Positions 645 through 63,825 of a stretch of DNA of 64,000 nt are shown in pieces. The translations under genes and the position numbers were made by a program. The notes beneath the pieces are model-generated. The model did no database searches. It saw nothing but the letters and a program-made list of their open reading frames with translations, and had not been told where the DNA came from. Each line of letters begins with the position of its first letter. Within the stretch, counting starts at the first letter, position 1. The stretch covers positions 13,774,804-13,838,803 of the forward strand of contig OX235277.1 in NCBI GenBank assembly GCA_944472155.2, given 5' to 3'. The stretch is from Trichobilharzia szidati. Lineage: Eukaryota; Platyhelminthes; Trematoda; Strigeidida; Schistosomatidae.

Positions 645-727
645 CTAGGGAATGAGTAGAAAGAAACCTAGCAAATAGCCACACAAACTTAGTATGAGAA
701 TTAGTAGTACATACAAAAACAATGGTT
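645..727 (-). CDS. MEG terminal exon, unit A (TM segment)
   Basis: The acceptor is a T-rich tract ending TTTCAG just upstream (728-730 on the plus strand reads CTG). The exon supplies two bases of a Glu codon, then Pro-Leu-Phe and a helix that includes LYVLLILILSLCGYLLGFF, ending Leu-Leu-Ile-Pro and TAG. Units B (19237-19319) and C (38272-38354) have exons of identical length and phase, and a diverged relative lies at 21830-21984. The mostly hydrophobic run fits a single membrane span with almost no cytosolic tail. No obvious polyadenylation hexamer was found just downstream. Confidence 0.6.
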
Positions 728-3700
728 CTGAAATTAAACAAAATTTCCAATATTACAAGTGAATTGTAATGCATATCAGAGCAGTGACAATGAAGGCCTT
801 AGAATATTTCAATGTTTTATGTATTTATCAATATATATATATCAATTTAGGTCAAGTTGAATTTATATCTCATCATATATCATTCAGTAGGACACGTTAA
901 ACAACGAATGCACATTAGGGGTTCATTATAAAACTGATATAAATAGGAAGGTGACATGAGAACACTTGATCCTCTCCAAACTAGGTTTAGGATAAACTAT
1001 CACTCGAAAAATAAATATTTCTGCCTCGATCACTGCTGTGTTTCCACTGTGATCTTGGTCACAGTTATCTGGAGGGTGTTTGCCTAAGCAGTCTATTCGT
1101 AAACAGTAATTTACACCATTGATGTCAGAAAGAAGTAACTACTGCGCCTACTCATTTCAATGTTGCAATTCTTGTAATATAGCACCTCTTCACATAGTTT
1201 TTCCAGTCAGTGGGCATGTGTTGTTGTAAGTCATGTGAAATTTCATTTTCACTTTATTTCGCCACACTGTCTTCTTTCGATCTGTCTCCAAGTGTTTCAC
1301 GTGATTTTGTCGCTTCCTGACTCGAACATACTTCTTTAGCCAGTCACAAATGTTTAGTGTAATACACTTTCATTATTAGATTACACATCGCAAGAAAGCA
1401 CTTTTCACGAAACTTTTCAGTACGATATTTTTGACAAAAGCATTTATTTTGTAAATACAGTTACTTTGAATTGGTGTGAGTGACACTCTGTTACATGCAT
1501 TTACAGAAGCTGGTGACTTCCTGACAACTGAGACTACTTAATGTGGAATGTGGGTTTTGCAACATGTGTGTAATGAAATCAATCAGGAAACTGTGTTTCT
1601 CCAGTACTTTCACAAAATGAAAGAAGACCAACATGACAGTCAACAGTATTCCTTAAGTTTCTCAAATATTGTCACACTATTTAAGCTAGTCATCTCCTGG
1701 AATGGGTGTCTAGAACCAACCAGGTTTTATTGATGTGTGAAAATAATTTATGGCATTCTTTCCTTAAGTCAGCATTAGGTTCATAGAATTTCACTCAAAA
1801 AATAATTCAGGCCTTACCTAATTTTTCTGAAACGAAAATGAAAGCTTTCTCGATTAAAACATTAACCCACGTACACCATCGTTTATTGCGAAAAGAACTT
1901 CTTGTTTCAAATGTTGTTGTAATTCATCAAGTTTGTTTTTCCCTCAGAGGAAAGATACTATAACTTTGATAAGATAAGGAGACAAAACTGAAGGACGTGA
2001 AGAACGTGTATCAACTCTATTTCTCGTTTAAAATTTGTGTACTTTATATGAACGATTATGAAAACCGTCAATTCTCTTTTGCATTAAAGCTTGATTACAC
2101 ACCGTTTATTTTAGTAAATGTATGGAATTTTCAGCATGTGAAAGCGGTAGCCCAAATTTTGAAGGCCAACCATAGATATCAGGTGTGCGTCGACAGGATA
2201 GTGAACCCCGGACCATGTGCATGGATGGCGAGACATAACAATGGAAAATCGTCATTCATCAAATCCTGAAACTAGGCATCCTAATCCATATATCTCATGT
2301 ATGTGTCAACTTGAAAATCAAAGATACACATCCATTTGCCGTCTCAATGAAGATATCAGACTTAAAATTCAAAGTGATCGAATGCTTTCACAGTTGTACA
2401 TATTTACTACATATGCTACGCCTTTTTAAATGTATATTTTTATTCGATGAACAACAAAACTAACTGTTTTAATATTGCTACTCAGAATTCGAGTAAATAA
2501 CACTTACCGGCATTCCTTTCTGCACAGTTGGTCAACAAAGGCATTTGGAAGGATTTTCGAACACAAGTAAGTCAGTTTAACAATTGATTAGATATACATT
2601 ACTTTTTAATATACAACGTCTTCAACGATTTTTCTAATAATTTGTATTGAGTACACAATATGCCGATTCATTTGTGTGTAAAACAAACATTTTCTCAGAG
2701 GTTCAGCGATTATTTAGCTGTACCTCACAAAATGGATGCAAATATCCCTTTCCTGACTGGGCAAACAAAATTATATTTGCCTAACGATGAAAAACAATGT
2801 TTGCATCCGTAATGATATCGAGGTGATAGATCAATATGAAATTTAGTAGGTGGGGAGATGATTAGCAGAGTGGAATGAATATCTCAACATTTTATGAAAA
2901 TTAAACTCAGGGTGGATTTTTTAGGTGGTATACGTTTGCATATTAAAAAAGTTCATGTTAACTAGGGATGTACCAGTCTCTTCAAACTATTTATTTCTTG
3001 AATATTCTCATTTTCCTGATAACTCATTTGAAATGAGTTTTTTTATTTGTGTTAGTTTTTTATGGAACGTGCTTCACGAATCACTATGGGTTTCTTTTGC
3101 AAATATTTTTATACCCAAGCTTCTTTCAAATTTGACCCCTCAGAAGTACTAATCAACCATAGTTCGAACGCCGGAGTAAATTACAAGGCGACCATTCAGC
3201 CTCTGTGACTTGACTCACTGGTCCATAAGTCTTGCCTTCCACCAGTTCGTGACTTTAGAGTGACCGCCATCCGGTGTCTGCGACTAGTGTTTGTCTGTAC
3301 TCCAAGTCGGGTGAATCCCACTGGATGCGACTTCTCACTAGAAGTCAGGGCATCTTCGTCCTCCAGCCACTCACTAGACAGTATTCGATTTAATGGCTGG
3401 TAGTCACGCCAGAATCACAAATTGGCAGAAATTGGTATTAATGGGTCACTGAGTCGAGTTTCATTGTCTGAATGTTCTCTGAAGACTCCTTGCACCTGGA
3501 ATATCCTGGTTTCAAAATACAGTGAGTGCGTGCTATCAATGAGTTACAAATTGAGAAGAAACGTCTATCTAGTACCCCTTGCTTCTCACACTTGATACGG
3601 ATCAAATCTTTACAAGTGAACTCTTGAAATTATACATAGATTGTCAAATTCCAGCTGACATTGATGTTACGTTGGTGTTTTAACAGAAATAACGAAATTA

Positions 3701-6700: not shown

Positions 6701-8692
6701 TTGACAGTCATGGTAAATAGAATTTTTTGGCTTTGATTTAAAGTCCATTCAACAAAAAGATGTGACCTGCAATGCCATACTCATAGAGCTTCCATATTTG
6801 TGGATTTCAGAGTCCGTATTCACGACCTTCCTTCGTAACAGTCACGTTTACTTTAAACTAATTGCATAAACAGAATAAACTAAAAATTTAAAAACTATCT
6901 CAAATGTGTCTTGCTGAATTTAATACTTTCTTTGTGAAGGATGTTCAGTTTAAAAAGTAATGGCCGTGTCATCACCTTAGGAGGATTAGGAATGTCAGAA
7001 ATAATTACAGTGATATAGTACTGATTATAAAAATAATTAGAGGAATTCGGAATATTCAAGTCTTGCAGATATATCTCGTGATTTCATCAGCTACTACTCG
7101 TCAAACGTTTATATCAGTTTCTTATTCATCAAACAAATACTATCATTGGCTGTGACATTAAATTCGAACAATCCACTGAACACAAGTATTTTTGTAGGAA
7201 TAGACATTCGATTCACAAACAGAAACAGTTGTTTTGTAGACGCTTGCTTAGTAATAACATTCAATCCGAGAATGGAATTGAAACATGCGATAGTTCAAAA
7301 CATATTTATGATAGGGTTTATTTGAGTATTCCAATGTCTTGATCAGGTAACTGACATACATCCTGTGATATGGGAAGGCCGCAAAATTCATATCACAAGA
7401 AATCATCCTGAAACTCTTATGCTACGAAGGATAATCTTCAAGTGAGTGACGGAAAAATGCAATCAAACAGTCAATGAAATATGAAGAAACAACCGATTCC
7501 TATCAACATCAAATCTCAGCAACCTGAATGAAACTTACATTGATCTAAATAGAAAGAGAATGAAAAACGAGAAGCTATAGAATTTCTTAACTGGAGTTAA
7601 AATTTCGCTAATCCGACTTAGTGTTTTACTACATCCTCCACAAAAGAAGGTAAGTGACAGAAAGATTTATCTCATAAATATGTTAACATAATGTCGTCTT
7701 CAGCTTACATTTCAGGTTGAATTCAGATATGTGCAACACTTGACGCACATTAGGTGAAAACCTGTAAAGTTAGATTCCTCAGAAACCAAGAACTGCTAAA
7801 AATATGTTTCTAAGGTTTTCTGCCAGTCACCACATGCGCTATCTCATAATATTCTGTCAAATGTAGATATTAAATTAATTATTTGATTTTCAGTAGCTTG
7901 TTTTTTCTGTGAAGAAACAGTTATTGGAAGTATATCGAATCTTCATCATTAGATCTTCGTTAGTCATCAAATATCTAAGAAAACGAACTGCTTCCTAATA
8001 CAACTGAAAGTTTCCACTGGTATTCTAGACAAGATAGATATTAACAGAAATAAACACTTAGTTTCTCCTAGGTGTTCACTATTGTAACACAAGTAGGAGG
8101 CATTCATACCTACCTTAAGGATCTTCTGATTATTTCTGCTTGTTTCATTTTCTGGTGAACGACATGATCATAACCATGACAGATTCCATTTTTGTGCGAA
8201 AAACTAAATGTGCACATACAAACGAAATAACCTATACATATTTACATTTGTACATCTTAGGAAATGTATTTGCCAGCGAAAATAGACTCTTTCCTGAATT
8301 GTGATGTTGATTACTAATTAACTTATTGCTTCATTTACCGAAATCCCCTAGCTCATTGATCATCATGTTCTTATTTTATAATTTTCATGAATTACAATTT
8401 CAATGAAACTTACAAAAACCTGTTATATACAAGGAGAATAAGAGTTGCAGAAATCGCTGAGAAAAAACTGCATCCTAAAAGTTGAAATACTGCAAGAATC
8501 AAGATGGGCCATCTGGTTCATTTGTGGCTCTTAATTTCTAATACGAGCACTTATGTTTATGCGTGATCAAATGATTTAATATTACACTGTTTTCACATTA
8601 TCACAAATGAAAGGCATAAGGAACTCACCCGCATTAGCCATTTTAGAAATCAATGCAATGTTCAGTAAAAACAAAAGACAATGAATGCGCAT
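645..8692 (-). CDS. Micro-exon gene (MEG), unit A: signal peptide, micro-exons, C-terminal TM
   Basis: The proposed exons are 8629-8692 (64 nt, Met-Arg-Ile-His-Cys-Leu-Leu..., hydrophobic, ending near Ala-Asn-Ala|Gly), 8414-8419 (GTTTTT), 7539-7544 (ATCAAT), 6559-6564 (TGAAAA), 6222-6245 (24 nt), 5882-5893 (GTAAAGACCTAA), 2508-2519 (AAAGGAATGCCG), 1818-1826 (AAAAATTAG) and 645-727 (83 nt, stop TAG). Every internal exon has AG/GT borders, is a multiple of 3 and is phase 1, so exons can be skipped without frameshift; this is the hallmark of schistosome MEGs. Joined, they read open for about 73 residues. After the signal peptide come Gly-Phe-Tyr-Gln-Leu-Lys and a hydrophilic linker, then Glu-Lys-Leu-Glu-Pro and a TM helix. 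Two further candidates, 8338-8346 and 8114-8122, are optional; the second contains an in-frame TAA. A PLE sits in the intron at 4.1-5.7 kb. By analogy with MEGs the product is a small secreted or membrane protein of the worm surface or oesophageal gland. The MEG subfamily was not assigned. The 24-nt exon is the least certain. Confidence 0.6.
2067..2238 (-). mobile_element. tRNA-like SINE, A-specific insertion
   Basis: This segment of about 170 bases is absent from the matching places in B (about 20,670) and C (about 39,700). It resembles the better preserved SINE at 45,886-46,052: the phrases TATGGAATTTTCAGCATG and GAACCCCGGAC occur in both. The B-box-like part (about 2,200-2,215) is damaged. 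It sits in the intron between the MEG micro-exons at 1,818 and 2,508. Confidence 0.65.
3250..3595 (+). mobile_element. Decayed Sm-alpha-like SINE pair, unit A
   Basis: Two degraded SINE-like stretches lie here. The second, from about 3,440, parallels the better copy at 58,520-58,700: a GGGTC...CTGAATG A-box region, a CCTGGTTTC B-box relic, GTGCG, then a hammerhead-like tail ending GAAGAAACGTC. Many substitutions have removed the pol III boxes. Unit C has the equivalent at 40,735-41,075. It probably predates the A/C split and is not active. Confidence 0.5.
4112..5722 (+). mobile_element. Penelope-like element 1, internally deleted, in unit A
   Basis: This element interrupts A at the point where C continues without it (41,590-41,640). 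The 5' end carries a terminal sequence (CACACAGTGTAGTACAG, then ATGACGTTTCGAGC) that recurs at about 22,300 and at about 46,690-46,715 in reverse. It is followed directly by reverse transcriptase (RT) coding sequence that starts just before motif A, so the N-terminal RT half is missing. RT and GIY-YIG domains in one frame define PLEs. The 3' boundary is uncertain and may lie a little beyond 5,722. Confidence 0.8.
4169..5722 (+). pseudogene. PLE reverse transcriptase/GIY-YIG endonuclease, broken
   Basis: One frame runs through the segment. The RT part has Pro-Thr-Tyr-Glu-Leu-Ser-Lys, motif A Ser-Phe-Asp-Ile-Thr-Ser-Leu-Tyr-Thr-Asn-Ile-Pro, the Gly-Val-Ala-Met-Gly-Ser-Pro motif B and the catalytic Tyr-Val-Asp-Asp (about 4,729-4,740). 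The thumb has the Val-Tyr-Arg-Lys-Pro-Thr signature. Two in-frame stops follow, TGA at 5003-5005 and TAA near 5,091. Then the same frame gives a GIY-YIG domain: Ile-Pro-Cys-Asn-Asp-Cys, Asn-Tyr-Ile-Gly-Gln-Thr and Leu-Ser-Glu-His-Lys. The first ~25 residues of the ORF come from terminal-repeat sequence and are not RT. The copy is non-autonomous because of the stops and missing N terminus. Confidence 0.85.
5882..5893 (-). CDS. MEG micro-exon (12 nt), unit A
   Basis: On the minus strand GTTTGCAG precedes GTAAAGACCTAA, which is followed by GTAAGTTT. Both splice sites are strong. In phase 1 it reads Gly-Lys-Asp-Leu when joined to the 24-nt exon at 6,222 and to AAAGGAATGCCG at 2,508. Its surroundings resemble those of the C micro-exon at 43,482, which has the same TTTGCAG acceptor. 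It lies only about 170 bases from the PLE edge. Confidence 0.55.
   Translation of the reverse strand, partial: VKT
5900..8100. other. MEG intron sequence, unit A
   Basis: Apart from the micro-exons at 6222-6245, 6559-6564 and 7539-7544, no coding or repeat signal was recognised. Short ORFs here (for example on the minus strand at 6,485-6,748) have no conserved counterpart. From 7,360 upward it recurs inverted in arm D. Confidence 0.5.
8629..8692 (-). CDS. MEG exon 1 (signal peptide), unit A
   Basis: The ATG at 8692-8690 opens 21 codons plus one base, giving a short basic N end, a Leu/Ile-rich core and a small-residue Ala-Asn-Ala|Gly end typical of a signal-peptidase site. The donor is G|GTGAGT. 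The D exon (62396-62459) and the C exon (49455-49518) are also exactly 64 nt and share a Leu-Asn-Ile-(Ala/Val)-(Leu/Phe)-Ile core. This ATG was chosen because all three copies keep it and it lies about 43 nt below a TATA box. Confidence 0.75.
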
Positions 8693-19236: not shown

Positions 19237-20957
19237 CTAGGGAATGAGTAGGAAGAAACCTAGCAAATAGCCACACAAACTTAGTATGAGAATTAGTAGT
19301 ACATACAGAAACAATGGTTCTGAAATTAAACAAAATTTCCAATATTACAAGTGAATTGTAATGTATATCAGAGCAGTGAAAATGAAGGCCTTAAAATATT
19401 TCAATGTTTTATGTATTTATCAATACATATATCAATTTAGGTCAAGTTGAATTTATATCTCATCATATATCATTCAGTAGGACACGTTAAACAACGAATG
19501 CGCATTAGGGATGCATTATAAAACTGATATAAATAGGAAGGTGACATGAGACCACTTGCTCCTCTCCAAACTACGTTTAGGATAAACTATTACTCGAAAA
19601 CTAAATATTTCTGCCTAGATCACTGCTGTGTTTTCACTGTGATCTTGGTCACAGCTATCAACAGGGTATACGCCTAAGCAGTCTATTCATAAACAGTAAT
19701 TTATATCATTGATGTCAGAAAGAAGTAACTACTGCGCCTACTCATTTAAAGGTTGAAATTCTTGTAATATAGCACCTCATCACATAGTTTTTCCAGTCAA
19801 TGGGCATGTGTTGTTGTAAGTCATGTGAAATTTCATTTTCACTTTATTTCGCCACACTGTCTTCTTTCGATCTGTCTCCAAGTGTTTCACGTGATTTTGT
19901 CGCTTCCTGACTCGAACATACTTCTTTAGCCAGTCACAAATGTTTAGTGTAATACACTTTCATTATTAGAATACACATCACAAGAAAGCACTTTTCACGA
20001 AACATGTCGGTACGATATTCTTGACAAAGCACTTATTTTGTATATACAGTTACCTTGAATTGAGGTGAGTTACACTGTGTTACAAGCATTTACAGAAGCT
20101 GGCGACTCCCTGACAACTGAGACTACTCAATATGGAATATGGATTTTGTAACATGCGTGTAATTAAAAGTAATCAGAAAACTGTGTTTCTTCAGTACTTT
20201 CACAAAATCTAAGAAGACCAACATGACAGTCAACAGTATTCCTTAAGTTTCTCAAATATTGTCACACTATTTAAGCTAGTGAACTCATGGTAGTGGTGGC
20301 TAGAATCAACCAGGTTTTATCCATGTCTGAAAGTCATTTATGGCATTCTTTGCTTAAGTCAGCATCAGGTTCATAAAATTTCACTCATATAACGAATTCG
20401 GCCTTACCTAATTTTTCTGAGATGAAAATGAAAGCTTTCTCGATTAAAACATTAACCCACATAAACCATCGTTTATTGCGAAAAAAACTTCTTGTTTCAA
20501 ATGCCGTTTTAATTCATCAAAATTGTGTCTCCCTCAGAGGAAGTAGATTCACAAGATACTATAACTTTGATAAGATAAAGAGACAAAAACTGAGACACGT
20601 AAAGAACGTGTATCAACTCTATTTCTCCACTAAGTTTTGTGTAGGTATATGAACGGTTATGAAAATCGCCACATAAAAATGGAAAATCGTCATTCCTCAA
20701 ATCCTGAAACTAGGCATCCTAATCCATATATCTCATGTACGTGTCAACATGAAAATCAAAGATATACACCCATTTGTCGCCTTATTGAAGATATCAGACT
20801 TAAAATGCAAAGTGATCGAATGCTTCTACAGTTGTACATATTTATTACAAATGCTACGCTTTTTTAAATGTATATTTTTATTCGATGAACAACAAAACTA
20901 ACTGTTTTAATATTGCTACTAAAAATTCGAATAAATAACACTTACCGGCATTCATTT
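19237..20957 (-). pseudogene. MEG 3' remnant, unit B
   Basis: Three exons survive with intact splice sites. They are 20946-20957 (AAATGAATGCCG, reading x-Met-Asn-Ala), 20408-20416 (AAAAATTAG, Glu-Lys-Leu) and 19237-19319 (TM exon, same length and stop as A). The signal-peptide exon and upstream micro-exons, which would lie beyond 21,600, are replaced by other sequence, so no complete product is expected unless a new promoter has been recruited. No signal-peptide exon with the family pattern was found in 21,600-28,870. Confidence 0.55.
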
Positions 20958-21829: not shown

Positions 21830-21984
21830 ATACATTGTTTTTATATGTACTACTAATTCTCATACTCAGCTTATGCGTTTATTTGTTAGGCTTTTTTCTA
21901 CTCATTCCTGAATGCCTTTTTCCACCAGCTGTTATCTACAACGTTTTCAAACTTCAAATGATTCCTACTGCGTTCCGTGAATGA
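21830..21984 (+). CDS. Diverged MEG-type TM exon, inverted copy
   Basis: After TTAATTTCAG at 21820-21829 the exon enters in phase 1 and encodes Thr-Leu-Phe-Leu-Tyr-Val-Leu-Leu-Ile-Leu-Ile-Leu-Ser-Leu-Cys, matching the MEG TM exon of A, B and C but on the opposite strand. It lacks the stop after Leu-Ile-Pro and reads 24 more residues to TGA at 21982-21984. The open frame continues upstream to 21,697, probably through intron. It is part of an inverted duplicate of B 18,890-19,400. Whether it is spliced to anything is unknown; no upstream exon was found. Confidence 0.4.
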
Positions 21985-32682: not shown

Positions 32683-32689
32683 CAGTTTC

Positions 32690-35480: not shown

Positions 35481-35486
35481 GTGACG

Positions 35487-36256: not shown

Positions 36257-37464
36257 ACTTACAGTTTAATGAATCCGTCAGTTCTATTGGGCATCAGGCT
36301 TTTCACGCAAACATCACTTTGGTTATTTATGAACATATATATTGGTTTGTATTCACTAATAAATTGTGAATACGGTTTCATCGTATTAGAAGAGAGTGTT
36401 TGTGTCAGAATGACAATCTAACAATATTAACTATTTGTTAGCTCATAAAAACTAGAAGCCCATTTAAAATGAAATCAGAAGAGGATGGGTAGTCACACTT
36501 TGATTAAAAAATCTTCAAAACCTAATTAGATAAGCTGAAGCTCTGCACGCATCGTTAGTCCAAATAATGTCGATGATTATGCAGTCAGATTAATAAATAA
36601 TATCAAAATACAAATGCGAAGGTAGTAAGCGACTGATACTACTCACTTTCTCGTCGAATAAATATTTTTGAAAGCGTTTGATGATATTAACTAAGGAGAA
36701 GCAAAGTTACTTCGGTTTTGTTTTGACTCTTGTTATTCTGAACAACAACGCGAAATCATCGACGACAAATGATATGTATTCACCATGTGTTTGTTACTTG
36801 AATAAAAAGATAAATAAGGACTTTCCTCTTTTGCACAGGAAAATATTTTATTTCTCATCATAGTTTGAGTAAATACCTTAGGAAATCCACTCTCCTTCAG
36901 GTATTTATCAATAAAGTGAAATCTCAGCTTGTTGGGCGAATACAGCTTCTTGGTTCCTAAACAAAGTATTCTTACTAACCTTTACTTAAAAATAACGAAA
37001 CAGAAATGGTTGCAGTAATGACATTGTCCAGTCTACGTTCTTTCCTGTGGATTAAATTTTCGGCTGTAAAATTGTCCCTCCTTGTCATCGTGAGATCCAT
37101 GAAATTGAACTCGAAACTTTCACCCCCAAGGTAAATTTATTGTTAACTAAGATGTGGTTAAAATGGTCGGTTAATTAACAAGATTGATCGATGTCATTGT
37201 CAACAGCGGACGTACTATCAGCATATCATAAATGACTGGTTTCTTTATGGACTCGAGAACTTTGTCCGTTTCCGTTGGAGATAACCTGTGAAGATGTCAG
37301 CCAGGACAGGTCCAAGAAGTGGACCAGTCGTGTCCGTTTCAGTTTGGCATAAAGCTGGTAATCAGTTGTGAAATGAATGTTTGTCTTTTTATGCTTATCG
37401 TAGCAAATCTGTTTGTTGACGAATTAGGTAAGTCGTTTCCACCATAGATATATTTATTCTTGCA

Positions 37465-37545
37465 TTTTTATTAAAGCTTGATTCCACATCGTCTTTTTGT
37501 GCAACTATGGAATTTTCAGCATGCGATATCGGCATACTTTTCGGT
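37465..37545 (-). mobile_element. SINE 3' tail fragment, end of unit B
   Basis: Same fragment as at 18,436-18,520, with GCTTGATTCCACA and TATGGAATTTTCAGCATG. Confidence 0.6.
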
Positions 37546-37575
37546 AAACTGGTTACAATGGTATTATTTCATATA

Positions 37576-40500
37576 TCTATATAATCTACTTCACTGACAG
37601 CTTATTTCGAATTGGGCACAAAATTTGAAAGATGCATTCAAGTTATAGGTTGAAGGTTTATTTGAAATTGGATAGTAAACGTCGGTTTACCACTGAGTAT
37701 TGTGGTCTGAATGATCCATAAGGGTTTCATATATAAAGCTGCGCACATCTGATAAAACCTGAGGAAAGTCTAGTTGGAGACAGCATTGTTCGATCATATA
37801 ACTTTTTTTGATTTAAACCATACGAATATTTAGTAATTACATGAAGCACGCAATTCGAATTCAATTAGCTCTCCTGATCTGTTAATTTTTGAGCAGCCTC
37901 GATGGACATAATGTTTTAATTTCTCTCTTTCGGTGAAAGTGTTCTCTTTTCACTTGATTCTTTTTGTGAAATGACACGTATTAATAAATATCTCAGTGAA
38001 AGACTTCATCAAAAATATCGCTGTAACCACCATTTCACGATGCATATTGCCACACACACACAAATATCAAGTATTCAACATTCGCTATCATTTCGGGTAC
38101 TATATTTATACCAACTAACCAGTTTCCAACAATATTATGAATTCCAAATGAAAACAAAACACAAAAGGCAGAAATTTGTATTTTTATAGATCGAAATGTC
38201 AATTACACAACGTAATATGAATCATTTGGAAATTTTGCAGCGTTAAAGATAATAGTGAGTCAGCATTCACGCTAGGGAGTGAGTAGAAAGAAACCTAGCA
38301 AATAGCCACACAAACTTAGTATGAGAATTAGTAGTACATACAGAAACAATGGTTCTGAAATTAAACAAAATTTCCAATATTACAAGTGAATTGTAATACA
38401 TATCAGAGCAGTGACAATGAAGGCCTTAAAATATTTCAATGTTTTATGTATTTATCAATACATATATCAATTTAGGTCAAGTTGAATTTATATCTCATCA
38501 TATATCATTCAGTGGGACACGTTAAGCAAGGTATGAACATTGGGGATTCATTATAACTGACGTTATTAGGAAATCGACATTAAACCACTTGCTCCTCTTC
38601 AAACTACGTTTAGGATAAACTATCACTCGAAAAATAAATATTTCTGCCTCGGTCACTGCTGTGTTTTCACTGTGATCTTGGTCACAGCTATCAACAGGGT
38701 ATACGCCTAAGCAGTCTATTCATAAACAGTAATTTATATCATTGATGTCAGAAAGAAGTAACTACTGCGCCTACTCATTTAAAGGTTGAAATTCTTGTAA
38801 TATAGCACCTCATCACATAGTTTTTCCAGTCAATGGGCATGTGTTGTTGTAAGTCATGTGAAATTTCATTTTCACTTTATTTCGCCACACTGTCTTCTTT
38901 CGATCTGTCTCCAAGTGTTTCACGCGATTTTGTCGCTTCCTGACTCGAGCATACTTCCTTAGCCATTCACAAATGTTTAGTGTAATACACTTTCATTATT
39001 AGATTACACATCACAAGAAATCACTTTTCACGAAACTTGTCGGTACGATATTCTTGACAAAGCACTTATTTTGTAAATACAGTTACTTTGAATTGGTGTG
39101 AGTGACACTCTGTTACTTGCATTTACAGAAGCTGGTGACCCCATGACAGTTAGACTACTTAATATGGAATATGGTTTTTGTAACATGTATGCAATTGAAA
39201 GTAATCAGAAAACTGTGTTTCCACAGTAATTTCACAAAGTGAAAGAAGACCAGCATGACAGTCAACAGTATTCCTTAAGTTTCTCAAATATTGTCACACT
39301 ATTTAAGCTAGTGATCTCCTGGTATAGGTGGCTAGAATCAACCAGGTTTTATCGATGTCTGAAAATAATTTATGGCATTCTTTGCTTAAATTAGCATTAG
39401 GTTCATAGAATTTCACTCATAAAATAAATTAGGCCTTACCTAATTTTTCTGAAATGAAAATGAAGGCTTTCTCGATTAAAACATTAACCCACATAAACCA
39501 TCGTTTATTGCGGAAAAAACTTCTTGTTTCAAATGCCGTTTTTATTCATCAAAATTGTGTCTCCCTCAGAGGAAGTAGATTCACAAGATACTATAACTTT
39601 CATAAGATAAAGAGACAAAACTGAGACACGTAAAGAACGTGTATCAACTCTATTTCTCCACTAAGTTTTGTGTAGGTATATGAACGGTTATGAAAATTGC
39701 CACATAAAAATGGAAAATCGTCATTCCTCAAATCCTGAAACTAGGCATCCTAATCCATATATCTCATGTACGTGTCAACATGAAAATCAAAGATATACAC
39801 CCATTTGTCGCCTTATTGAAGATATCAGACTTAAAATGCAAAGTGATCGAATGCTACTAAAGTTGTACATATTTACTACATATGCTACACTTTTTTAAAT
39901 GTATATTTTTATTCGATGAACAACAAAACTAACTGTTTTAATATTGCTACTCAAAATTCGAGTAAATAACACTTACCGGCATTCGTTTCTGCACAGTTGG
40001 TCAACAAATGCATTTGGAAGGATTTTCGAACACAAGTAAGTCAGTTTAACAATTGATTAGATATACATTACTTTTTAATATACACCGTCTCCAACGATTT
40101 TTCTAATAATCTGTATTGAGTACACAATATGCCGATTCATTTGTGTGTAAAAGAAACATTTTCTCTGAGGTTCAGCGATTATTTAGCTGTACCTCACAAA
40201 ATGGATGCAAATATCCCTTTCCTGACTGGGCACACAAAATTATATTTGCCTAACGATGAAAAACAATGTTTGCATCCGTAATGATATCGTGGTGATAGAT
40301 CAATATGAAATTTAGTAGGTGGGAGATGATTAGCAGAGTGGAATGAATATCTCAACATTTTATGAAAATTAAACACAGGGTGGATTTTAAAGTTGTATAC
40401 GTTTGCATATTAAAAAAGTTCATGTTAACTAGGAATGTATCAGTCTCTTCAAACTATTTATATCTTGAATATTCTAATTTTCCTGATAACTAATTTCAAA

Positions 40501-41640
40501 TGAGTTTTTTCATTTGTTTTAGTTTTTATGGAACGTGCTTCGCGAATCACTGAGGGTTACTTTTGCAAATATCTTTATACCCAAACCTCTTTCAAATTTG
40601 ACCCTTCAGAAGTACTAATCAACCATAATTCGAACACAAGAGTAAATTACAAGGCAAGCTCATAGACCATTCAGCCTCTGTGTCTTGACTGACCGGTCCA
40701 TATATCCTGCCTTCCACCAGTTCGTGACTTTATAGCGACCAACATCTGATGTCAGTGGCTAGTATTTTTCGTTACTCCTGATCTCACTGGATGCGACTTC
40801 TCACTAAAAGTCATGGCATCTTCGTCCTCCAGCCACTCACTAGCCAGTATTCGATTAAATGGCTGGTGGTTACTGGAGAATCACAAATCGGCAGAAATTG
40901 ATTTTAATGGGATACTGAGTCGGGTCCTAGTGTCTGAATAGTCTGTGATTACGCTTTGTACTTAAATAGTCCTGTTTTAGAAATCCAGACAGTGCATGGT
41001 ACCAATGAGTTCCAAAGTGGAAAGAAACATCTATTTGGTAGTCCTTGCTTCTCACACTTGATACGGATCAAATTCCTGCAAGCAAACTCTTGAAAATATA
41101 TATATAGATTTTCAAATTCCAGCTGACATTGATTTTACATTGGTGTTATAACAGACATAACGAAAGTCATTTTCCGGTGAATTTAATTTAAATTGAAAAT
41201 TATTTAAGTTGAATAACAACTTCGGTATGAGTCTACATAATTTCATCCAAAACAACCTACATTACATCCTGAGGTTATTTGCATGTGCGATTGACTCTAA
41301 GTTGTTTATCGACACTTCTCTCGTATTCAGTCAAATTTAGGTTTCAATATGCAAAATTTCAATTACTGCATTCAATTTATAACCTCTAAACATTGATCAA
41401 TGTTCTCACCATCAGAATATCGTAATTCCCTATACGCTAATAATTGTTGTATATTGTAAAAATGTTCATTATTATATTTATTAATTATTTATTTCATTAT
41501 TCATTATTTATTTTCATGATTTGCTATTATCTTTTAGTGTCATTTTCGTATGTTTCAAATCTTTTCAAACCATTGAATCTGAACTTGTGTGAGACATGTT
41601 TATTACCAAAATGTTTTGTGAACTAAGTGAACTTGAAATC
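37576..41640. repeat. Segmental duplication, unit C (5' part)
   Basis: Third copy, collinear with A 1-4,110. Where A has the PLE insertion, C runs on into the divergent MEG locus. C lacks the A-specific SINE at 2,067. Past 41,640 only scattered similarity to A remains, around the MEG exons and promoter. Confidence 0.88.
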
Positions 41641-44600
41641 TATTCTAAAACTACTGATTATATAGCCAGTGAAGGTCGAACCATAATACTCCCCCTTCAC
41701 ATGAACTTGTTTCAGTCTTAAAGCAGAAATTGTTTCTCAAAGCCAATAATTCAAATGCTAAAAAGATTCACAAAGACTTAATCCTACAATATTGTGTTTC
41801 ATGAAATATCTCACCATAGCAAAAACTATGACCTTAAATGTACAGAATCCTTTTCTTCCACATAGAATATATCCATACTATGAATAACCAATAAAAAAAT
41901 CACTTCTTAACTAGTTGAATAAACCTGAATTGAGGAAGGAAATATCTTATTCTTAAACAGAAAATAGGTCATTTGAGACAGTATTTCAACATTTGCATAT
42001 GTCATTTTTTCCGAGGAATTCGATCATTGAAATGATCCACCTCCGTGTAATTTTAAGGGAATTCAGTGAAAGTGTTTAGACCAAGGTATTCGACTTTGTT
42101 ATATAAATTCATTGTTCATTTAGGTTACAAATCGTGATACAATAAAATATTGGATAAGAAGGGTAAGTATCAAGATGAATTCATTCACAGACGCTTAATG
42201 CTTCCTACATTGACGTGAAACTATACATTTGCAAATCATACATCGTGTTCAAGAATAAGTACAAGTGACACTCACTCCCCACTTCATCTACAAATAATTT
42301 TAATTAGCAGCATCATTGTGGATATTCACTGATAACTGAAAAGCAATTTACAGCACGAGAGACGACAGCAAACCTGTTGTGATCATGAAAAGGGGTGTTT
42401 TCTGCTTTATGTTTGGTAGTAAACAACAGGGACTGAATGATTTATTGATAAATGATATCAGAAAAGCCAGAAATGAATATCTCATTTCGCTTTGATATAA
42501 ACTGCAATTAAAGCCTTCATTTATGAAAAATGTATGCAAACTCATTAAGATCACTTCTATATATCAACGTATTAATCGTGTCCTGACCAATTTACAAACT
42601 TCTCAGACGAGATGAATTTCGACAGATGGCCGACTGAAAAATGTGTCAGGAAGAAAACATGTAAGAGGATTGAACTCAAATTTGGTACCGCAGGAAACGA
42701 AGAGGTCATCTTATTCAATATTTCAACATTTGTTTATGTATACTAGTTTTTGGTTCTGAGGAAAAAGATATTCAAATACGTTTCACAAAAATAACTAAAA
42801 ACCACGTTCGCGACTGTAGTAAACACTTTACAGCAATATGAATCCTGATGCCTAGTTACCGTACAAGATTATATAACTAGTATGACCCATGAAAGTGTCA
42901 CTCTGTTTCATGAGTCGCTAGATATATCAATCAGCACCCGAAAGCATCTCATATATCCTCATCCCGTGCAACATTTCACCATAAGTATATCTTAGTTTCC
43001 AAATCACCAACAAAATAAACTACTGTCAACATTTACTCCTGTAATAATTTACTAACTTCATATAGAGTTATTTGAGTAAGTTCATTTTGTCAATCATATG
43101 AAGCTGTAATGTTGCATAATACAGTGAGAAGTACTAATGCAAAAGTCAAAAAGTAAGTGGCTTCAGTGTTCATGTCACTATTCATTTGAAGAGTTTGATG
43201 CCTGCACAGTGTTTTTCTGTGTAACTCAATAGTGATTTGTTTCAGATAAATATTAGTGCAAATGTGTGTACCAAGATATCGAAATGTCTTGCATAGTTTC
43301 CATGTTTATTTCGACTTCTGATCAGGAATCCATAAAGACACTAACATTAAAAAGCAGGTATCTCAGTGTACGTATACACTAGCACTATATGATTCCTATG
43401 CAAGTATTTCTCTACATATTTTGATATAGAAAATTGTGCTTCGTAAAACCAATTAAAAGAATAAGTACAAAGTATACTCACCGATTTCTTCTGCAAATGT
43501 TTTAATTAGCTTTGCAGCACCTATTATTTGCTGATATATGCAACATGAACTAAAATACTGAATGGCATTACAACGATAGCAAGTATACTGAGGTTATGGA
43601 AGGGAATATATCCCGCTTCCTAATTAGAAGTAAGCAGAATATATTTAGACTGACCTTAGATGAAGGGGTTTCAGAAAAACTGAAAATTTGTTCCGCTCAT
43701 CGTGTTGTGATGTGAAACATCTTGGACTTTATGCGAAGAATTACTGTGTCCTTAAGTTTGCGAAATGCTTGTGTTCTCATTAAAAAATATTTTCAAATCA
43801 ATCATCTGGAATATTGCGAAAGTTAAACAGTTCTGATAAGAAATGGTTTCAATAGTGGGTTACTTATTCAAAGAAATATTCCGCAAACGCTTCTGAGAAA
43901 AGTTTCTTGTCAAGTAATTTTGGGTGAAAAGGAGGACTTTCAAGTAACAAGATTCCTCACTACTCGTTAACACGTAAATATAAGTTACTAAGATTTCCAT
44001 TATAAGTACCATCCTGCACTCCAAGCAGAGAAATGCCTCAAATAATGTCTATCCCCTGCCACATTTTGATCAGAACTAAATCACAGTTTCTGAGTCACCA
44101 AAGCGATTTAACTGTTGCATCTAGCCTTCGTCAGAAACAACCTGAGAAATGCATATCGATTTAATTCAGTTAGCTGATTTCGTCAATCGTATTTAGCCAT
44201 TCACTTTGCAAACAGTTGAGGGTTCTCATGTTGTGTAAAGCATTGGGAACTAATGAGGTATTTTTGAAAGGATAAAATTAGCTCTTTATACTGCTATTGT
44301 TTGTTGTACGAATTTGATGCTTTAAAATGGTACCTCCTGGCAGAATTAGCTGTAAATGCATTTTAATGAAAATATTCATGCTAGGATACCCAACTTTGTT
44401 ACTCGTGTCGATTGTAAGTTAAGAGCTCATCGAAATGCATATCTGGATATTACACATAGTGCTTTGAAAAATGTTGTTCATGAATACAATTCAAATTATA
44501 CTTACTTGGCACTATTATTGCAAACATTCACAATTAGACACACAACGACTATTATTGAGTGGTATGTACAACGTAAACCACTTTATAGTTAGAAGTTAGT

Positions 44601-47600
44601 GAAAGATTTGACCAGTGTTGACCAGTCAGGTGTAATTAGCTTTGATGTGAATTTCAGTCAAATTTATGTGATCTACAGTAACATGTGATTGAAAACTAAT
44701 GGAACTTCAGGATTATTAGATGTCAAATTCGATTTTCATGACATCATTACCGTGCGTAACCAGAACGAACTATAAATTGAAAACCACTCTACTTGTAAAT
44801 TAAAATATACTCAGTTGAATTTTTTTGATCAGAAGGTATTTCGATTCGAAAACGTGACATGTTTCATCACTTCAGTAGATATAAGAATATAAATAATAGT
44901 TTTATCAGTAATTTGAAATATTCGAACCGTTTATACTGACGCTGTGTAACTCTGAATTACAGTGAGCGTGATACAACTTTCTCACATACGTTTCAACCAA
45001 AAGCATTGTATTAATACCCCTTAGAATAAATTCGAAGCATCCTCTAAACAGTAAGTATCTTTTATGTACAAAACATTTAATTCACAGAATCAAGCTATTC
45101 CTTCTGTGGGCAGCTCCATCAAAACTAAGATATTCGCCAAATGCTAGTACAAATAAATGAAGACTGGCGATTGGTAAACATTGCGAGTGAAGGTCAAGTT
45201 ACTGACAGAAAATATGTGATGTTCGGCTGCATTTGAAAACAAATGGTCTTAATAGCTGTGAAGCATGCCATGAAGATATACGATGTACTGGATTAACGAA
45301 CATGAAAAGCAGTCTGTGTGACACGCGAAAATTTACCCTGAATATGCAACTGAAGCATATTGTAGTAAACTATGAGATAAGAATAGGCAGTTTAGAAACA
45401 TTCCACAGTGAGGATCAGGTAACTGTCATATAATCTGTGGTATGTTAAGATATGTGTAAAATTTGGGCACTGTGTAAGTAATTCCATATTAGTTTGTTTA
45501 TTAGATGTATCACACAGTTAGTGAAACAGTATTATTTATATAGTTTTTTATAGTTTTCTTTGTCCGCTCCTAGTTGTCGCAGGGGTAGGAGAATTTTGCA
45601 GATATCTGGTACAGGTGTCAAATCATTCCTATTACATCTACTTGCAGTTGATTCGATAAACAAAGCTACCGTTATCAATCTCTCCATTCCCCTGTGATAT
45701 TATATTTTAAAACTGTCATCGTATCCCATCCTATTGTGTGGTTAGGTGTAACTGCATGTAGTGCTAAAGCTGAATTATTCTCTGGATTTCTTATCTTATT
45801 CGGGTCAACTAATCTAGATTTTGTTAGGTTTTATGCTCGGCTAGTTTGACTGCCCCTGTTTTATTTTTTTTTATTTTTTATTTACAGCTTGATTCCACAC
45901 CGTATTTTCAGTACAAGTATGGAATTTTCAGCATGGATATCGGTTGCCCAAATTCAGGCATACCATAGATATTGGGTGTGCGCCGGCAGGGGATCGAACC
46001 CCGGACTATGTGCATGGTCGGCGAGAGTCCTAACCACTGTGCCACCGACGCATTTGACCTGACAATCATTGCAGAGTATTAAATAAACTAAATTGTTTTG
46101 TTTTTTAAGCCTCCACAGGATCTTTCAATCGACAAAGCTTGTTTCTAATTGAGTTTGTGAGTTTAAATGCCACTTTTATTCCTGCCATGTTAAGGATTCT
46201 CCGTTAGTTTTCCGAGGCTCCTCCCTTCTATGGAATTACTACTGATGATTTAGATTCATAATTATAAATTATTTAAATTAATCCCAGCGTGTTAAGAAAA
46301 TCAAAACAAGATTTTTCTGAACGTTTCGCTGTGTAAGCCACAGCTTCTTCAGCAGATTTATCGCTCAAATTATTTCAGGAATTTCGTAACACCTACGGCC
46401 TGGAAACCTATAATCTTATTAAAAATCGGATTAAATTATCAAAATTTCATTCAAACTGGTATAATCACCGTATATTCAATTTAGATTCATAATTGTTGGT
46501 GTCCTCAATAATATTATTATTATCACTATCACCACTATCATTATTTATTTTATTTTTACATTTTCCTACATATTTCCTGATTACCCCTACGACAAATAGG
46601 AGAGGACAAGGAAAACTATAAAACTCAAGTTTCGAGGTCGTGTGATTACAATTGATATGCTTATGAACAACAAATTTTGTTCGAAACGTCATCCAATAAA
46701 CAATACGGTTTCACTGTGTGATACATCTAATAAACAAACGTATTCACATCAAAAGAGATGATCCTGGGACATTTTTTAAAACTTGACAATGACAAATGGA
46801 AAAAATAATCTGAATAGGCAATCCATGTGACACAGAATGATTGACCGTTGTCGTCTCACAATTTGCATCAAATCCAGGAGGTATAAAATAAACTTACACT
46901 TGTCTACATTAAGGGAGGATGAAGAATGTCAGTTTAAGGAATCTGCGAACTGTACATAAAATAATACTAATATCGCACAGTGCTTCCCTGCAACCTCCTC
47001 ACAAGAAGATAACTCGAATTAAAATTAACCTCATACACACGATTCCCAACATTTTTATCTTAAAGTACGGCATAACATTTACTGAAATATCACGTTGAAT
47101 ATGACTACGTTTACTTTTTTACGCACAGTCTGTCATTCCACTTTAAATCAGATTGCTTTGAAATTTTTGAGTGCAAGAAATAGTGGGCAGTATCGAATGT
47201 GCTCGTAATTTACACATTATGAATAAGATTTTCAGCCAGTTACACAATGAGGTATCACTTAATATGCTGCAAAATGCGGCTGATAATCTAATTAGTTTAT
47301 TTTGAACATATTTCAGCAGACTCTTTTCCGTCTGGAAATGATTTAACGGAGGGATTTCCAGTCGTCATCAATAGAACTAAGTTAATCGTTGAGTAACTCA
47401 GACAATACCACCGATTCACAATGAAATCTTGGATTTTTATGACATTCTAGTCAAGATGTTGATCGTCCGAAACGATAATTATCAATCTGCAGAATATTTC
47501 AGAGTACAGTGATTAGAATTCTTTGAACAACTTCCCGTTTCTCCTAGATTCTCAGTCTTTTAACGAACCATTCACACCTAAGCTCTTCATCTCAGCATTA

Positions 47601-49518
47601 CAATTTACTTGGCTCATTTTCTAGTAAATGACATAATTTCACGTATTTCAGTATAAATGTGATATAAATATCAGTCGCCATCAAATTATGAGTATTTCCT
47701 TCACTTATATTAAAAGCGTTGCAGCATCTCGCACAAGCACGTTTACATACAGTACAAATATATCATCACCCTTTTAACTGCTAAAAAACGGAAAATACTG
47801 TTGACTACTGATTCCCTTGGTGTTATCACTATCAAACTTCGATTTTCTTCTTCCTCCATCTCTATGAACTTTAGGTCCAAATCGGTGATTATTCTTGAAT
47901 CATAATGTAAATGTAACTCACAAAATCCTGGTATATACAGGAAATATAAGAAGTAAAGAAATCACTGAGCAAACACATTTATAAACTTTACTTTTTAGTT
48001 AAGAGTTCTTGAGTGCATCTACACACATACTTGAAGAAACGTTTAGGTAGAAAACACCTTAGTAGAGTTAATGATGGTTACTAGAGGTCGACCAGACGAA
48101 AACATTGTATTTTGAGTGGACTCCAGTAACAGAATTATTATTTTATTTAGCATGGCATCACCGTGTATTCATACCAATATTGTCGTATCATGCGTTAGTA
48201 GTTCAGCTGTAGAATGCTGTCCAAACACACAGGTATTAAGAAGATTTTCATCTTCTTGAGTTTATTTGCTAACCAGAGGATTTCACAATATAAGTATTAG
48301 ACGCAGAATATTTTCTCAGAGCTGTTTTTGCAAATCTGCCATGCGACTTCTTGGAAATATTCCACATCAGGCTTCAGAGAATCATTATAATATGTGAAAC
48401 ACTCATCTGATACCATATTTTCATCAAGTGGCGCAACATTTTGATGTTGTTTTCAAGTTCACACAGGATAACAACTAATGACATCTTCTGCATTTATGCG
48501 TTCTTCGGTATTACGTTCACTCGAAAAACAACAACGGCCAAAGATACTTCCCTGATTTAATATGTCCAAATCTATTTCACGTTCAACAGTTTGATAAAAT
48601 GAATAGCCATAATTCATTGAAATTTAACACAGAATAATTCCTGGAGTTAATGAGCGCTGAGAATAATTAGTAGGTTTTCACATATCCTGACAACAAGTTA
48701 AGTGGTTACGAAGCTGATCAATAGCCCATTCAACGATAAAAAGCGACTATTAAACGTCTTCGGAATTTTAAAAACAAAGGGGATTGTATTCCAGATAGAA
48801 ATCGACACAATGAAGAAATGCTGCATTCGCTCCAGTAGTTATCTATCTAATGAGTCACTCAGTTTCATGAATTTCGAATTATAGATGAATAAAGCTACAG
48901 TGTTTCAAATATGATGAAGACATATTTTTGTGAATGTAACATTGAAATTTTCAGGTTATTCAGTATACCGAATCAATGTGAAGCTTCTCCATTAAGTGAA
49001 CGGTATAAGGCTAGAAATCGTGATTAATTGATAGCAGACAGGCAGTAGACAGATAGCTGAATGAGCGTGTCAAGTAACGACAGAATCTCACTGACATCCG
49101 TTTCAAATTTTTCTCCATCTCAAAATGCTAACCAAAAGTAAGAAATGCACTACATACAAATCAAAATAATAGTGTCGAAAACATGAATATCATGACGAAA
49201 GTCTCAGATGTCTGCATCACGAAAACTAATCAAAATGGTATTTGGTTCAAAGACAAATAAATGGTTAGATTCATGGCTTTGTCGGTTTATGTTTGTATCA
49301 ACTGATGGCACTTGAAATGGTCAAGGATTTAAAACCAGTCAACTAGCTAATTGGAACATTTGTTTAATTATAGAATGGAATAATCTAATACTACAGTGAT
49401 TTTACATTACAACACATGAGAAATGATACAAATTCACCAAAATATTGTACTCACCCGAATCAGCTGTTTTCGGAATGAAAACGATGTTCAGTAAAAGCAG
49501 AAGATAACTGCCGTGCAT
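38272..49518 (-). CDS. Micro-exon gene (MEG), unit C: complete open chain
   Basis: Exons in order are 49455-49518 (64 nt signal peptide, Met-His-Gly-Ser-Tyr-Leu-Leu...), 47922-47927 (GATTTT), 46898-46903 (ACAAGT), 44506-44511 (TGCCAA), 43482-43490 (AAGAAATCG), 42276-42287 (ATGAAGTGGGGA), 39977-39988 (AAACGAATGCCG), 39440-39448 (AAAAATTAG) and 38272-38354 (83 nt, TM and stop). All internal exons are phase 1, multiples of 3 and bounded by AG/GT. They total 207 nt, about 68 residues, with no stop. After the signal peptide the chain reads Gly-Phe-Tyr-Lys-Leu-Pro-Lys-Glu-Ile-Asp-Glu-Val-Gly, then Lys-Thr-Asn-Ala-Glu-Lys-Leu-Glu-Pro and the TM. The mature ectodomain is only about 22 residues. The A gene has homologous exons and the same Gly-Phe-Tyr start. 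Skipping of any micro-exon keeps frame, so isoforms are likely. A PLE remnant sits in the intron at 45.5-46.7 kb. Confidence 0.7.
40735..41075 (+). mobile_element. Decayed Sm-alpha-like SINE pair, unit C
   Basis: Orthologous to A 3,250-3,595. GGGTCCTAGTGTCTGAATAG resembles the A-box region of 58,560, and the tail GAAAGAAACATC is the GAAAC arm of the hammerhead. The cleavage core is lost. Confidence 0.5.
42276..42287 (-). CDS. MEG micro-exon (12 nt), unit C
   Basis: The minus strand reads ATTTGTAG, ATGAAGTGGGGA, GTGAGTGTC. Flanks resemble those of the micro-exon at 43,482 (AATAAGTACAA below, TTTTAATTAGC above). The two therefore look like products of a roughly 1.2-kb intragenic duplication. 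Confidence 0.65.
43482..43490 (-). CDS. MEG micro-exon (9 nt), unit C
   Basis: The minus strand reads ATTTGCAG, AAGAAATCG, GTGAGTATAC. With phase-1 neighbours it encodes Lys-Glu-Ile. Confidence 0.65.
44512..45490. other. MEG intron, unit C
   Basis: No coding sequence was recognised apart from the adjoining 6-nt exon at 44506-44511. A 66-codon plus-strand ORF at 45,233-45,433 has no support. Confidence 0.45.
45492..46739. mobile_element. Fold-back PLE remnant in a MEG intron
   Basis: The ends are perfect 26-base inverted repeats (45492-45517 and 46714-46739), each containing TTAGATGTATCACACAG. The right end read in reverse gives ATGACGTTTCGAAC and matches the head of PLE 1 at 4,135-4,200. 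The left interior has an inverted relative of the same head (TTTTATAGTTTTC, GTCGCAGGGGTA). The interior holds a SINE and unclassified sequence but no RT domain. It lies between micro-exons 46898 and 44506. Confidence 0.7.
45886..46052 (-). mobile_element. tRNA-derived SINE, well preserved
   Basis: On the minus strand the head reads TGGCACAGTGGTTAGG (A box, 46029-46044) and about 30 bases later GGTTCGATCC (B box, 45991-46000), spacing that fits a tRNA-type pol III promoter. The body includes TGCCGGCGCACACCC and ends in the tail TGTAAATAAAAAATAAAA. Copies of the tail occur at 2,088, 18,440 and 37,470. It is nested inside the fold-back element. It is not a functional tRNA, because the acceptor stem does not close. 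Confidence 0.8.
47930..49450. other. MEG intron 1, unit C
   Basis: No further exon was recognised between exon 1 and the GATTTT micro-exon. Islands similar to A 8,400-8,460 surround the micro-exon. Confidence 0.45.
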
Positions 49519-49560: not shown

Positions 49561-49568
49561 CTTATATA
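49561..49568 (-). promoter_or_regulatory. TATA box of the unit C MEG
   Basis: TGTATATAAG on the minus strand, 43 nt above the ATG. This is the same spacing as in A although the surrounding sequence has diverged. Confidence 0.55.
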
Positions 49569-57200: not shown

Positions 57201-57269
57201 AGCGGAATAAGGGTTTAAACATGTAAAGTTCAAACAAAATGTATTTGCTAATTCGCTTGTCAAGATATC

Positions 57270-62395: not shown

Positions 62396-63825
62396 ATGAG
62401 CATTCATTGTCTTTTGTTTTTTCTGAACATTGCATTTATTTCCAAAACGGCTATTGCGGGTGAGTTCCTTCTGCTTTCCATTTGTGATAACGTGTAATAT
62501 TAAATCATTTGATCACGCATAAACATAAGTGGTTGAATTAGAAATTAAGAAACTCAAACTAAGCAGATGACCCGTCGTGATTCTTCCAGTTATTTACCAC
62601 CAACTAAAGCACAAAGTATTCCACTTTTTAGGATGCGCATTTTTCTCAGTGATTTCTGCAACTCTTATTCGCCTTGTATATTCCAGGTTTTTGTAAGTTT
62701 CATTGAAATTGTTTTTCATGCAAATTATTAAATTAGAATATGATGCTTAATGAGCTAGGAGAATTTGGTAAATCAAAGATAATTAGTGATCAAAAACATC
62801 AAAATTCAGCAAAGAATCTGTTTTCCCCGGAAAATTCATTTCTATTGATGTACAATTGTAAATAAATACAGGTTATTTCGTATTTGCACATTCAGTTTAT
62901 CGCACAAAAATGGAATCGGTTATGGTTACTTTAACTGAACAAGTGAGAATTTGCCTTTATTAATGCCTAAATGGGAATTATTTTTCAATCATAACGTCTT
63001 GTAAATCATCATCACGTCTTGTAAAAGTAATAAGGATATTTCTTTTTTACTTGAAAATGTCTTAATAAAATGCTGCATCTCCTTTTAATATAATTAAAGA
63101 AAATATGCATAATTTGACAATAACTATTATTTACATGAGGAATTTGCTGAAATTCGTGAGATCAAGTTGTTCACCTGAAAATGAAACAAGTGAAAATAAT
63201 CTTCAGATCCTTTAGGTAGGTATGAACGCTTCCTACTTGTGTGACAAAAGTGAAGACCTAGAAGAAACTAAGTGTTTATTTCTGATAATATCTATCGTGT
63301 TTATAATACCAATGGAAACTTCCATTTGTATTAAGATGCAGTTCGTTTTCTTAGATGTTTGATGACTAACGAAGATCTATTGATGAAGATTCCATATACT
63401 CCCAAAAACTGTTTCTTAAGACAAAAGGCAGTCGACTGAATATCAATAAATTAATTTAATATCTACATTTGACGGAATATTATGAGATGACGTATGTCGT
63501 GACTGAGTGAAAACCCTAGAAAAATCATCCAATTTATAACCATATTCGATTTTCAGTCGTATTTTTCGCAGTACTTGGTTTCTGAGCAATCTAAGTTTAC
63601 AGGTGTTGACTTTATGTGTGTAAAGTGTTGCACATATTTGAATTCCACTTGAACTGTTATCTGAAGTAGACATTGTGTGAACACATTTACGAGATTAATC
63701 TTAATATCACTTACCTTCTTTTATGGAAGATGCAGTAAAACAGTACTTTGGATGAGCATAATTTTAACTGCAGGTAAGAAATTCTATAGCTTCCCGTTTT
63801 TCATTCTCTTTCTATATAGATCAAT
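62396..63825 (+). CDS. Micro-exon gene (MEG), arm D, 5' part
   Basis: Exon 1 is 62396-62459 (64 nt; Met-Ser-Ile-His-Cys-Leu-Leu-Phe-Phe-Leu-Asn..., ending Ala-Ile-Ala|Gly; donor G|GTGAGT). Micro-exons follow at 62687-62692 (GTTTTT), 63207-63215 (ATCCTTTAG) and 63820-63825 (ATCAAT), with a less certain 30-nt exon at 63744-63773. All join in phase 1 and stay open: Gly-Phe-Tyr-Pro-Leu, then (optionally) Val-Leu-Trp-Met-Ser-Ile-Ile-Leu-Thr-Ala, then Asp-Gln. The gene continues past the window, where the remaining micro-exons and TM exon should lie. Relative to A, the 9-nt exon is functional (TTA instead of TAA). The candidate at 62751-62759 would give a stop and is presumably skipped. Confidence 0.55.

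Follow-up and report, generated by a model that had tools for sequence, protein, structure and literature searches.

Micro-exon genes (MEGs) of schistosomes have a signal exon and mostly symmetric micro-exons (<36 bp), and their products are small and secreted or anchored (PMC10526429, PMC4671649, PMC4350168; every paper cited here is represented by parts of its text). Their introns are long (about 0.1-5 kb), the 5′ exon encodes most or all of the signal peptide, a long 3′ exon is partly non-coding, and the transcripts are often alternatively spliced. They form tandem clusters and undergo species-specific duplications (PMC10526429, PMC4350168, PMC4671649, PMC5825161, PMC10399815 and PMC6362228, between them). 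The majority of Schistosoma mansoni micro-exons is given as 15 bp (PMC10526429), and 26 of the 33 micro-exons of MEG-26 to 32 are symmetric (PMC4671649). MEG-14, 29, 32.1 and 32.2 carry a transmembrane helix as anchor, are predicted to be O-glycosylated and have been likened to cell-associated mucins (PMC4671649). Hydrophobic C-termini are described for MEG-8 and 15, and amphipathic helices for MEG-9, 12, 26, 27 and 28 (PMC4671649, PMC5825161). In Trichobilharzia, 10 MEG transcripts are reported from T. szidati and 4 from T. regenti, some of them unlike the MEGs of S. mansoni (PMC6362228); T. regenti has counterparts of MEG-4, MEG-8/9 and MEG-26 (PMC5825161). The shortness of their exons makes MEGs difficult to annotate. 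The subject of this text is a predicted gene, gene A, located at 49518-38272 on the minus strand of a 64,000-nucleotide stretch of T. szidati DNA (contig OX235277.1, positions 13,774,804 to 13,838,803 of the forward strand); this whole stretch is called the window. Gene A is very probably a schistosome-type MEG belonging to an apparently unannotated, tandemly duplicated family. The predicted product consists of a signal peptide, an ectodomain of 22 residues and a hydrophobic anchor at the C-terminus. The exon anatomy of gene A, the recurrence of its exons in paralogues, the agreement of their frames and the selection on the anchor exon carry this reading.

Gene A has nine exons of 64, 6, 6, 6, 9, 12, 12, 9 and 83 nt (5′ to 3′, the last including the stop), which join in a single open frame of 207 nt, that is, 68 codons and the stop. 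Its eight introns (528-2386 nt) all end in AG; the donor is GTRAGT in seven of them and GTAAGG in one. Every junction is in phase 1, and the length of each of the seven micro-exons is divisible by 3. The first-pass annotation had proposed a chain of nine exons, seven of them of 6-12 nt, joined in one frame with AG/GT borders between 38272 and 49518; this chain is recovered, on the minus strand. The strand and the surrounding array of paralogues are additions to that annotation.

In the predicted product, residues 1-21 correspond to a putative signal peptide with a hydrophobic core, and a putative cleavage site is found at the end of exon 1 (A-D-S in gene A, A-N-A in paralogue B, A-I-A in paralogue D), both judged by inspection. 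Residues 22-43 form a charged ectodomain of 22 residues (Kyte-Doolittle mean -0.99; one Thr, no Ser). The 23 residues 44-66 make a hydrophobic segment (mean 2.68), and the C-terminus lies 2 residues further. These values bear out the earlier description of an ectodomain of about 22 residues built from micro-exons and followed by a hydrophobic C-terminal exon. In addition to the TATA-box-like element given in Table 1, a second TATAWA is found at -92 in gene A; D has TATAAG at the aligned place, without a TATAWA match. On the 3′ side, the coding part of 83 nt is followed by a first AATAAA/ATTAAA candidate at 37920.

The 64-kb window is an array of paralogues: A, B and C on the minus strand, D and E inverted (Table 1). 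Copy B repeats, in order, the signal exon, micro-exons 2, 3, 4, 7 and 8 and the terminal exon. Copy C keeps micro-exons 7 and 8 and the terminal exon; its signal exon was not found in the window by BLASTN or TBLASTN, and exons 2-6 were not found either. In copy D, the signal exon is followed by micro-exons 2 and 3, and the gene then runs off the window end. The signal exons of A, B and D have a common start, length, frame and GTGAGT donor. In the 5′ half of A and B, most intron sequence is no longer alignable; three of the five A-B BLAST islands found there (E 1e-3) lie on exons 1, 2 and 4, and two of the three A-D islands on exons 1 and 2.

Candidate micro-exons were counted with a splice-site rule (base rule: 6, 9, 12 or 15 nt between AG and GTRAGT, with at least 7 pyrimidines in the upstream 15 bases), and 500 dinucleotide shuffles served as null model. 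The base rule finds 6 sites in the gene A region versus 0.44 in the shuffles, none of which reaches 6; seven other strand-regions of equal length have 0 or 1 site each. In the widened rule, adopted after exon 8 had been seen, the donor is GTRAG[TG]. It finds 7 sites in A, which are exactly the predicted micro-exons (0.66 in shuffles), 5 in B (0.51) and 2 in D (0.07), with 0 of 500 shuffles reaching the count in each case. Applied to both strands of the whole window, it finds 23 sites, 16 of which are micro-exons of A (7), B (5), C (2) and D (2); the 7 others lie outside the array micro-exons, one of these inside exon 1. The excess is weaker when no pyrimidines are demanded (6 versus 1.12 with GTRAGT, 9 versus 3.43 with GTRAG; one shuffle in 500 each). 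Over the whole window, eight non-symmetric lengths (4-14 nt) give 11 sites. All symmetric lengths of 3-36 nt give 41, of which 25 lie elsewhere than in array micro-exons; the specificity of the rule is thus limited to 6-15 nt.

Between the terminal exons of A and E, 14 of 78 positions differ; 9 of these are third positions, and 3 amino acids change (nonsynonymous divergence, dN, 0.054; synonymous divergence, dS, 0.93). Values are similar for B-E (dN 0.035, dS 0.81) and C-E (dN 0.036, dS 1.14). This pattern of substitutions shows purifying selection on the terminal exon in the predicted frame, and supports its translation in the frame that starts at the exon 1 ATG. All micro-exons preserve the frame between this ATG and the selected frame of the terminal exon. 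The micro-exons shared by A and B differ at 7 positions; in the first two split codons, A and B encode the same residue in spite of the change (Gly, Tyr). The exon structure of the gene, its uniform phase, the recurrence of its exons in paralogues and the purifying selection on the anchor exon all support the schistosome-type MEG identity that the first-pass annotation had put forward.

No match was obtained by a single-sequence protein search with the product, no candidate sharing three 5-residue words with it. In a protein search with an alignment of the pieces, none of the 234 candidates had an E value of 10 or lower. The product has no match in Pfam or in the PDB, and three of its 10-12-residue strings are absent from the literature text searched. 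These protein searches can miss fast-evolving MEGs, because shared exact 5-residue words are required. The array is likely a new MEG family, to which the published Trichobilharzia MEGs are comparable by description only; MEGs are already known as a gene class, and it is the family that looks new. Of the earlier suggestion of an undescribed subfamily with a terminal transmembrane segment, the first half is consistent with the lack of a similar protein in these searches. As to the second half, an anchor by itself is not new, since MEG-14, 29, 32.1 and 32.2 have transmembrane anchors according to the part of PMC4671649 drawn on here.

Several observations weigh against gene A being such a MEG. 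The splice-site rule was tuned once candidates were known, so that the shuffle figures are descriptive only. Three A-B micro-exon codons replace a residue (exons 3, 4 and 7), versus two silent split-codon changes. The signal exons are without clear purifying selection (A-B, dN 0.34, dS 0.55; A-D, dN 0.36, dS 0.81; B-D, dN 0.11, dS 0.08). The flanks of the terminal exon are 95-98% alike among A, B and C, about like the exon (97.5%); the identity of the A, B and C terminal exons says little alone, because their flanks are nearly equally conserved. The windows of exons 7 and 8 are outscored by 43 and 46 of 294 block windows. No counterparts of exons 5 and 6 turned up in the other copies (B, C and D), either by the splice rule or by BLAST of the two exon regions; a motif search for such counterparts matched exon 6 alone, and it proves little, because exon 5 itself was missed (one-base length difference). 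Among the A-B islands, the remaining two are an off-diagonal repeat and a segment (45444-45400) in which no exon was found; the third A-D island, 47604-47727 (intron 2) against 63070-63194 of D (72%), contains no recognisable exon. No annotated homologue was found, though T. regenti proteins are in the searched database.

The chain could be a chance string of splice-like sites, which occur about 0.4-1.3 times per 11 kb, depending on the strictness of the rule, and one shuffle in 500 reached the observed count when pyrimidines were not demanded. This is hardly credible: under the widened rule the count in A, B or D is reached by no shuffle, and the same exons are found in the same order in diverged paralogues. 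The array could also be a relic, an old MEG cluster mostly decayed, in which A is no longer transcribed. Copy C, in which no 5′ exons were found, copy E, reduced to a terminal exon, and the presumed Penelope-like element in an intron of B are consistent with decay. This explanation is very unlikely for A, which retains its start, stop, splice sites and frame, and whose anchor exon differs from that of E mostly by silent substitutions; the B exons that were found retain theirs piecewise.

Two other explanations keep the gene and change the fate of its hydrophobic end. This end could be a glycosylphosphatidylinositol (GPI) attachment signal, the mature product being a lipid-anchored peptide of about 13-17 residues and not a transmembrane protein. 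A signal peptide combined with a hydrophobic tail that stops 2 residues short of the C-terminus and leaves no cytoplasmic segment (A, B and C), and small residues (G, N, A) seen by inspection 6-10 residues ahead of the tail in A would suit such processing. GPI signals are usually less hydrophobic than this tail (mean 2.68 over 23 residues), and copy E, with a near-identical anchor, reads on 24 residues further, although E may be decaying; GPI attachment is considered somewhat unlikely, yet a serious alternative. Alternatively, the hydrophobic end would be no anchor at all, and the product would be released as a membrane-active or aggregating peptide. A fate of this kind has been proposed for other MEGs whose segments are hydrophobic or amphipathic; segments of both types are described in PMC4671649 and PMC5825161. 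Release is an unlikely outcome for gene A, whose segment is hydrophobic throughout its 23 residues. A segment of this length is long enough to cross a membrane.

For a MEG with a membrane-anchored product, the preferred explanation, the transcription, splicing, membrane location and role of gene A would be as follows. A TATA promoter would drive a short transcript. Exon 1 would supply a cleavable signal peptide, likely cut at the exon 1 end (A-x-S in A, A-x-A in B and D); the seven symmetric phase-1 micro-exons would supply the charged 22-residue ectodomain; the last exon would supply the 23-residue hydrophobic segment, almost reaching the C-terminus. The product would be a very small type I membrane protein displayed on a membrane of a gland or of the tegument, or on secretory vesicles. 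Duplication or skipping of exons and divergence between paralogues could vary its ectodomain, the anchor being kept constant. The regions of exons 5 and 6 of gene A are an apparent internal duplication. Of the 128 exon-skipping combinations of gene A, 92 stay open and 36 reach a stop; when exons are skipped one at a time, exon 4 is the only one of the seven whose loss gives a stop, which lies at the new junction.

Duplicated blocks make up much of the window (pieces 78-94% identical overall, one copy inverted). Self-comparison pairs 10793-21597 with 28889-40738 (pieces of 81-91% identity) and 3-4106 with 37580-41583 (88% identity); 54268-64000 is an inverted match to 7364-16842 (pieces of 78-83%). 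The terminal exons are spaced by about 19.0 kb from A to C and about 18.6 kb from C to B. In 250-nt steps, A is 82-98% identical to B and C over 37.5-41.6 kb (C only to 40.75 kb); above 41.6 kb, the matches of A shrink to short pieces, mostly of 71-78%; the exceptions are one interspersed repeat and a small number of 24-30-nt matches. The simplest inference is that recombination or gene conversion kept the 3′ half of the copies alike, because the introns of one gene, all of the same age, should not diverge so unequally. The exact boundary of the homogenised half is masked in B by the presumed Penelope-like insertion.

With low confidence, the array may be viewed as a modular system for minimal variable surface peptides, with a homogenised 3′ module, a diverging 5′ module and a splice switch at exon 4. 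Recombination would keep the 3′ module (the anchor plus exons 7 and 8) similar from copy to copy. The 5′ module (signal exon and exons 2-6) would meanwhile diverge and duplicate exons, giving ectodomains of about 15-22 residues on one anchor. Skipping of exon 4 after exon 3 would create a stop at the junction and a secreted fragment lacking the anchor.

As this array shows, 6-nt exons can be recovered without RNA by comparing the paralogues of a single genome. This family with a near-minimal ectodomain would, if expressed, join the host-interface repertoire of bird schistosomes, and would be a simple case for the recognition of 6-nt exons and for MEG evolution by duplication and partial homogenisation.

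Table 1. Predicted exons and promoter element of gene A and of its paralogues (positions in the window)
Copy	Feature	Position	Strand	Remarks
A	TATA-box-like element	49563..49568	-	50 nt before ATG; TATAWA equally spaced in B
A	Exon 1 (signal-peptide exon)	49455..49518	-	64 nt from ATG, ends in phase 1; homologues in B and D with equal frame, length and GTGAGT donor
A	Exon 2, 6 nt, GATTTT	47922..47927	-	In conserved island (A-B 76%/85 nt, A-D 76%/78 nt); GTTTTT in B and D
A	Exon 3, 6 nt, ACAAGT	46898..46903	-	Aligns with ATCAAT exon of B and D, order kept; below the 1e-3 BLAST cut-off
A	Exon 4, 6 nt, TGCCAA	44506..44511	-	In A-B island (75%/71 nt); TGAAAA in B
A	Exon 5, 9 nt, AAGAAATCG	43482..43490	-	Seen in A only; region 78%/58 nt identical to exon 6 region
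A	Exon 6, 12 nt, ATGAAGTGGGGA	42276..42287	-	Seen in A only (splice-rule scan, BLAST); apparent duplicate of exon 5 region
A	Exon 7, 12 nt, AAACGAATGCCG	39977..39988	-	B and C copies with intact splice sites; 1 substitution per pair
A	Exon 8, 9 nt, AAAAATTAG	39440..39448	-	Identical in A, B and C; splice sites intact
A	Terminal exon (predicted hydrophobic anchor and TAG stop)	38272..38354	-	97.5% identical among A, B and C; purifying selection versus E
B	Exon 1 (signal exon)	8629..8692	-	
B	Exon 2, GTTTTT	8414..8419	-	
B	Exon 3, ATCAAT	7539..7544	-	
B	Exon 4, TGAAAA	6559..6564	-	
B	Homologue of exon 7	2508..2519	-	
B	Homologue of exon 8	1818..1826	-	
B	Terminal exon	645..727	-	
C	Homologue of exon 7	20946..20957	-	
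C	Homologue of exon 8	20408..20416	-	
C	Terminal exon	19237..19319	-	
D	Exon 1 (signal exon)	62396..62459	+	Inverted gene
D	Exon 2, GTTTTT	62687..62692	+	
D	Exon 3, ATCAAT	63820..63825	+	
E	Lone inverted terminal exon	21830..21984	+	Frame open 24 residues beyond the A/B/C stop

Other features were found within and around these genes. The best-conserved stretch of A, B and C is 38815-38954, in intron 8 of gene A (80-column windows of 98-100% versus a median of 91%). A minus-strand frame open over 59 codons (38992-38813) overlaps it; 53 of these 59 codons were compared with Pfam and gave no match. A plus-strand 15-nt splice-like site, antisense to gene A, is present in all three 3′ blocks (1461, 20050 and 39083-39097) and is probably shared by descent. 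The island 45444-45400 of A (7372-7328 in B) was tried as an exon and rejected, its splice sites not being conserved.

An intron of copy B contains a retroelement (4166-5722), which we take to be Penelope-like. Its reverse-transcriptase open reading frame (ORF), 4166-5005, corresponds to Pfam RVT_1 and matches 83 proteins; the best named matches belong to Heterobilharzia americana (77%, covering 61% of the query) and T. regenti (up to 95%, covering 45%), both schistosomatids. These matches of a single mobile element suggest a Trichobilharzia-like bird schistosome as host of the window. The ORF that follows resembles a GIY-YIG nuclease by eye; it is without a Pfam match. What looks like a second Penelope-like fragment lies in the territory of copy C (23079-25078), flanked by inverted repeats (99%) that contain 93-bp tandem units; its ORFs have no match in Pfam. 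At 51293-52030, ORFs resemble by eye a remnant of a retroelement lacking long terminal repeats, and one of them matches Pfam DUF6451. An interspersed repeat (45862-46026, also 2084-2233 and 18423-18505) has a tRNA-derived look by eye; an ARAGORN tRNA scan and Rfam at gathering scores found nothing in the whole window, this repeat included.

Compared with the described systems, gene A is like the MEG class in its internal exons, all seven of which are micro-exons (6-12 nt, <36 bp) and symmetric, in its 5′ exon, which encodes a putative signal peptide (by inspection, in A, B and D), in its introns, whose lengths fall within about 0.1-5 kb, in its small predicted product and in its tandem cluster. 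It differs from the class in the length of its micro-exons, all of 6-12 nt versus mostly 15 bp in S. mansoni (PMC10526429, in the part drawn on). Unlike that of MEG-14, 29 and 32, predicted to be O-glycosylated, its predicted ectodomain is not Ser/Thr-rich; like them, it has a product with a predicted transmembrane helix, as judged from hydropathy.

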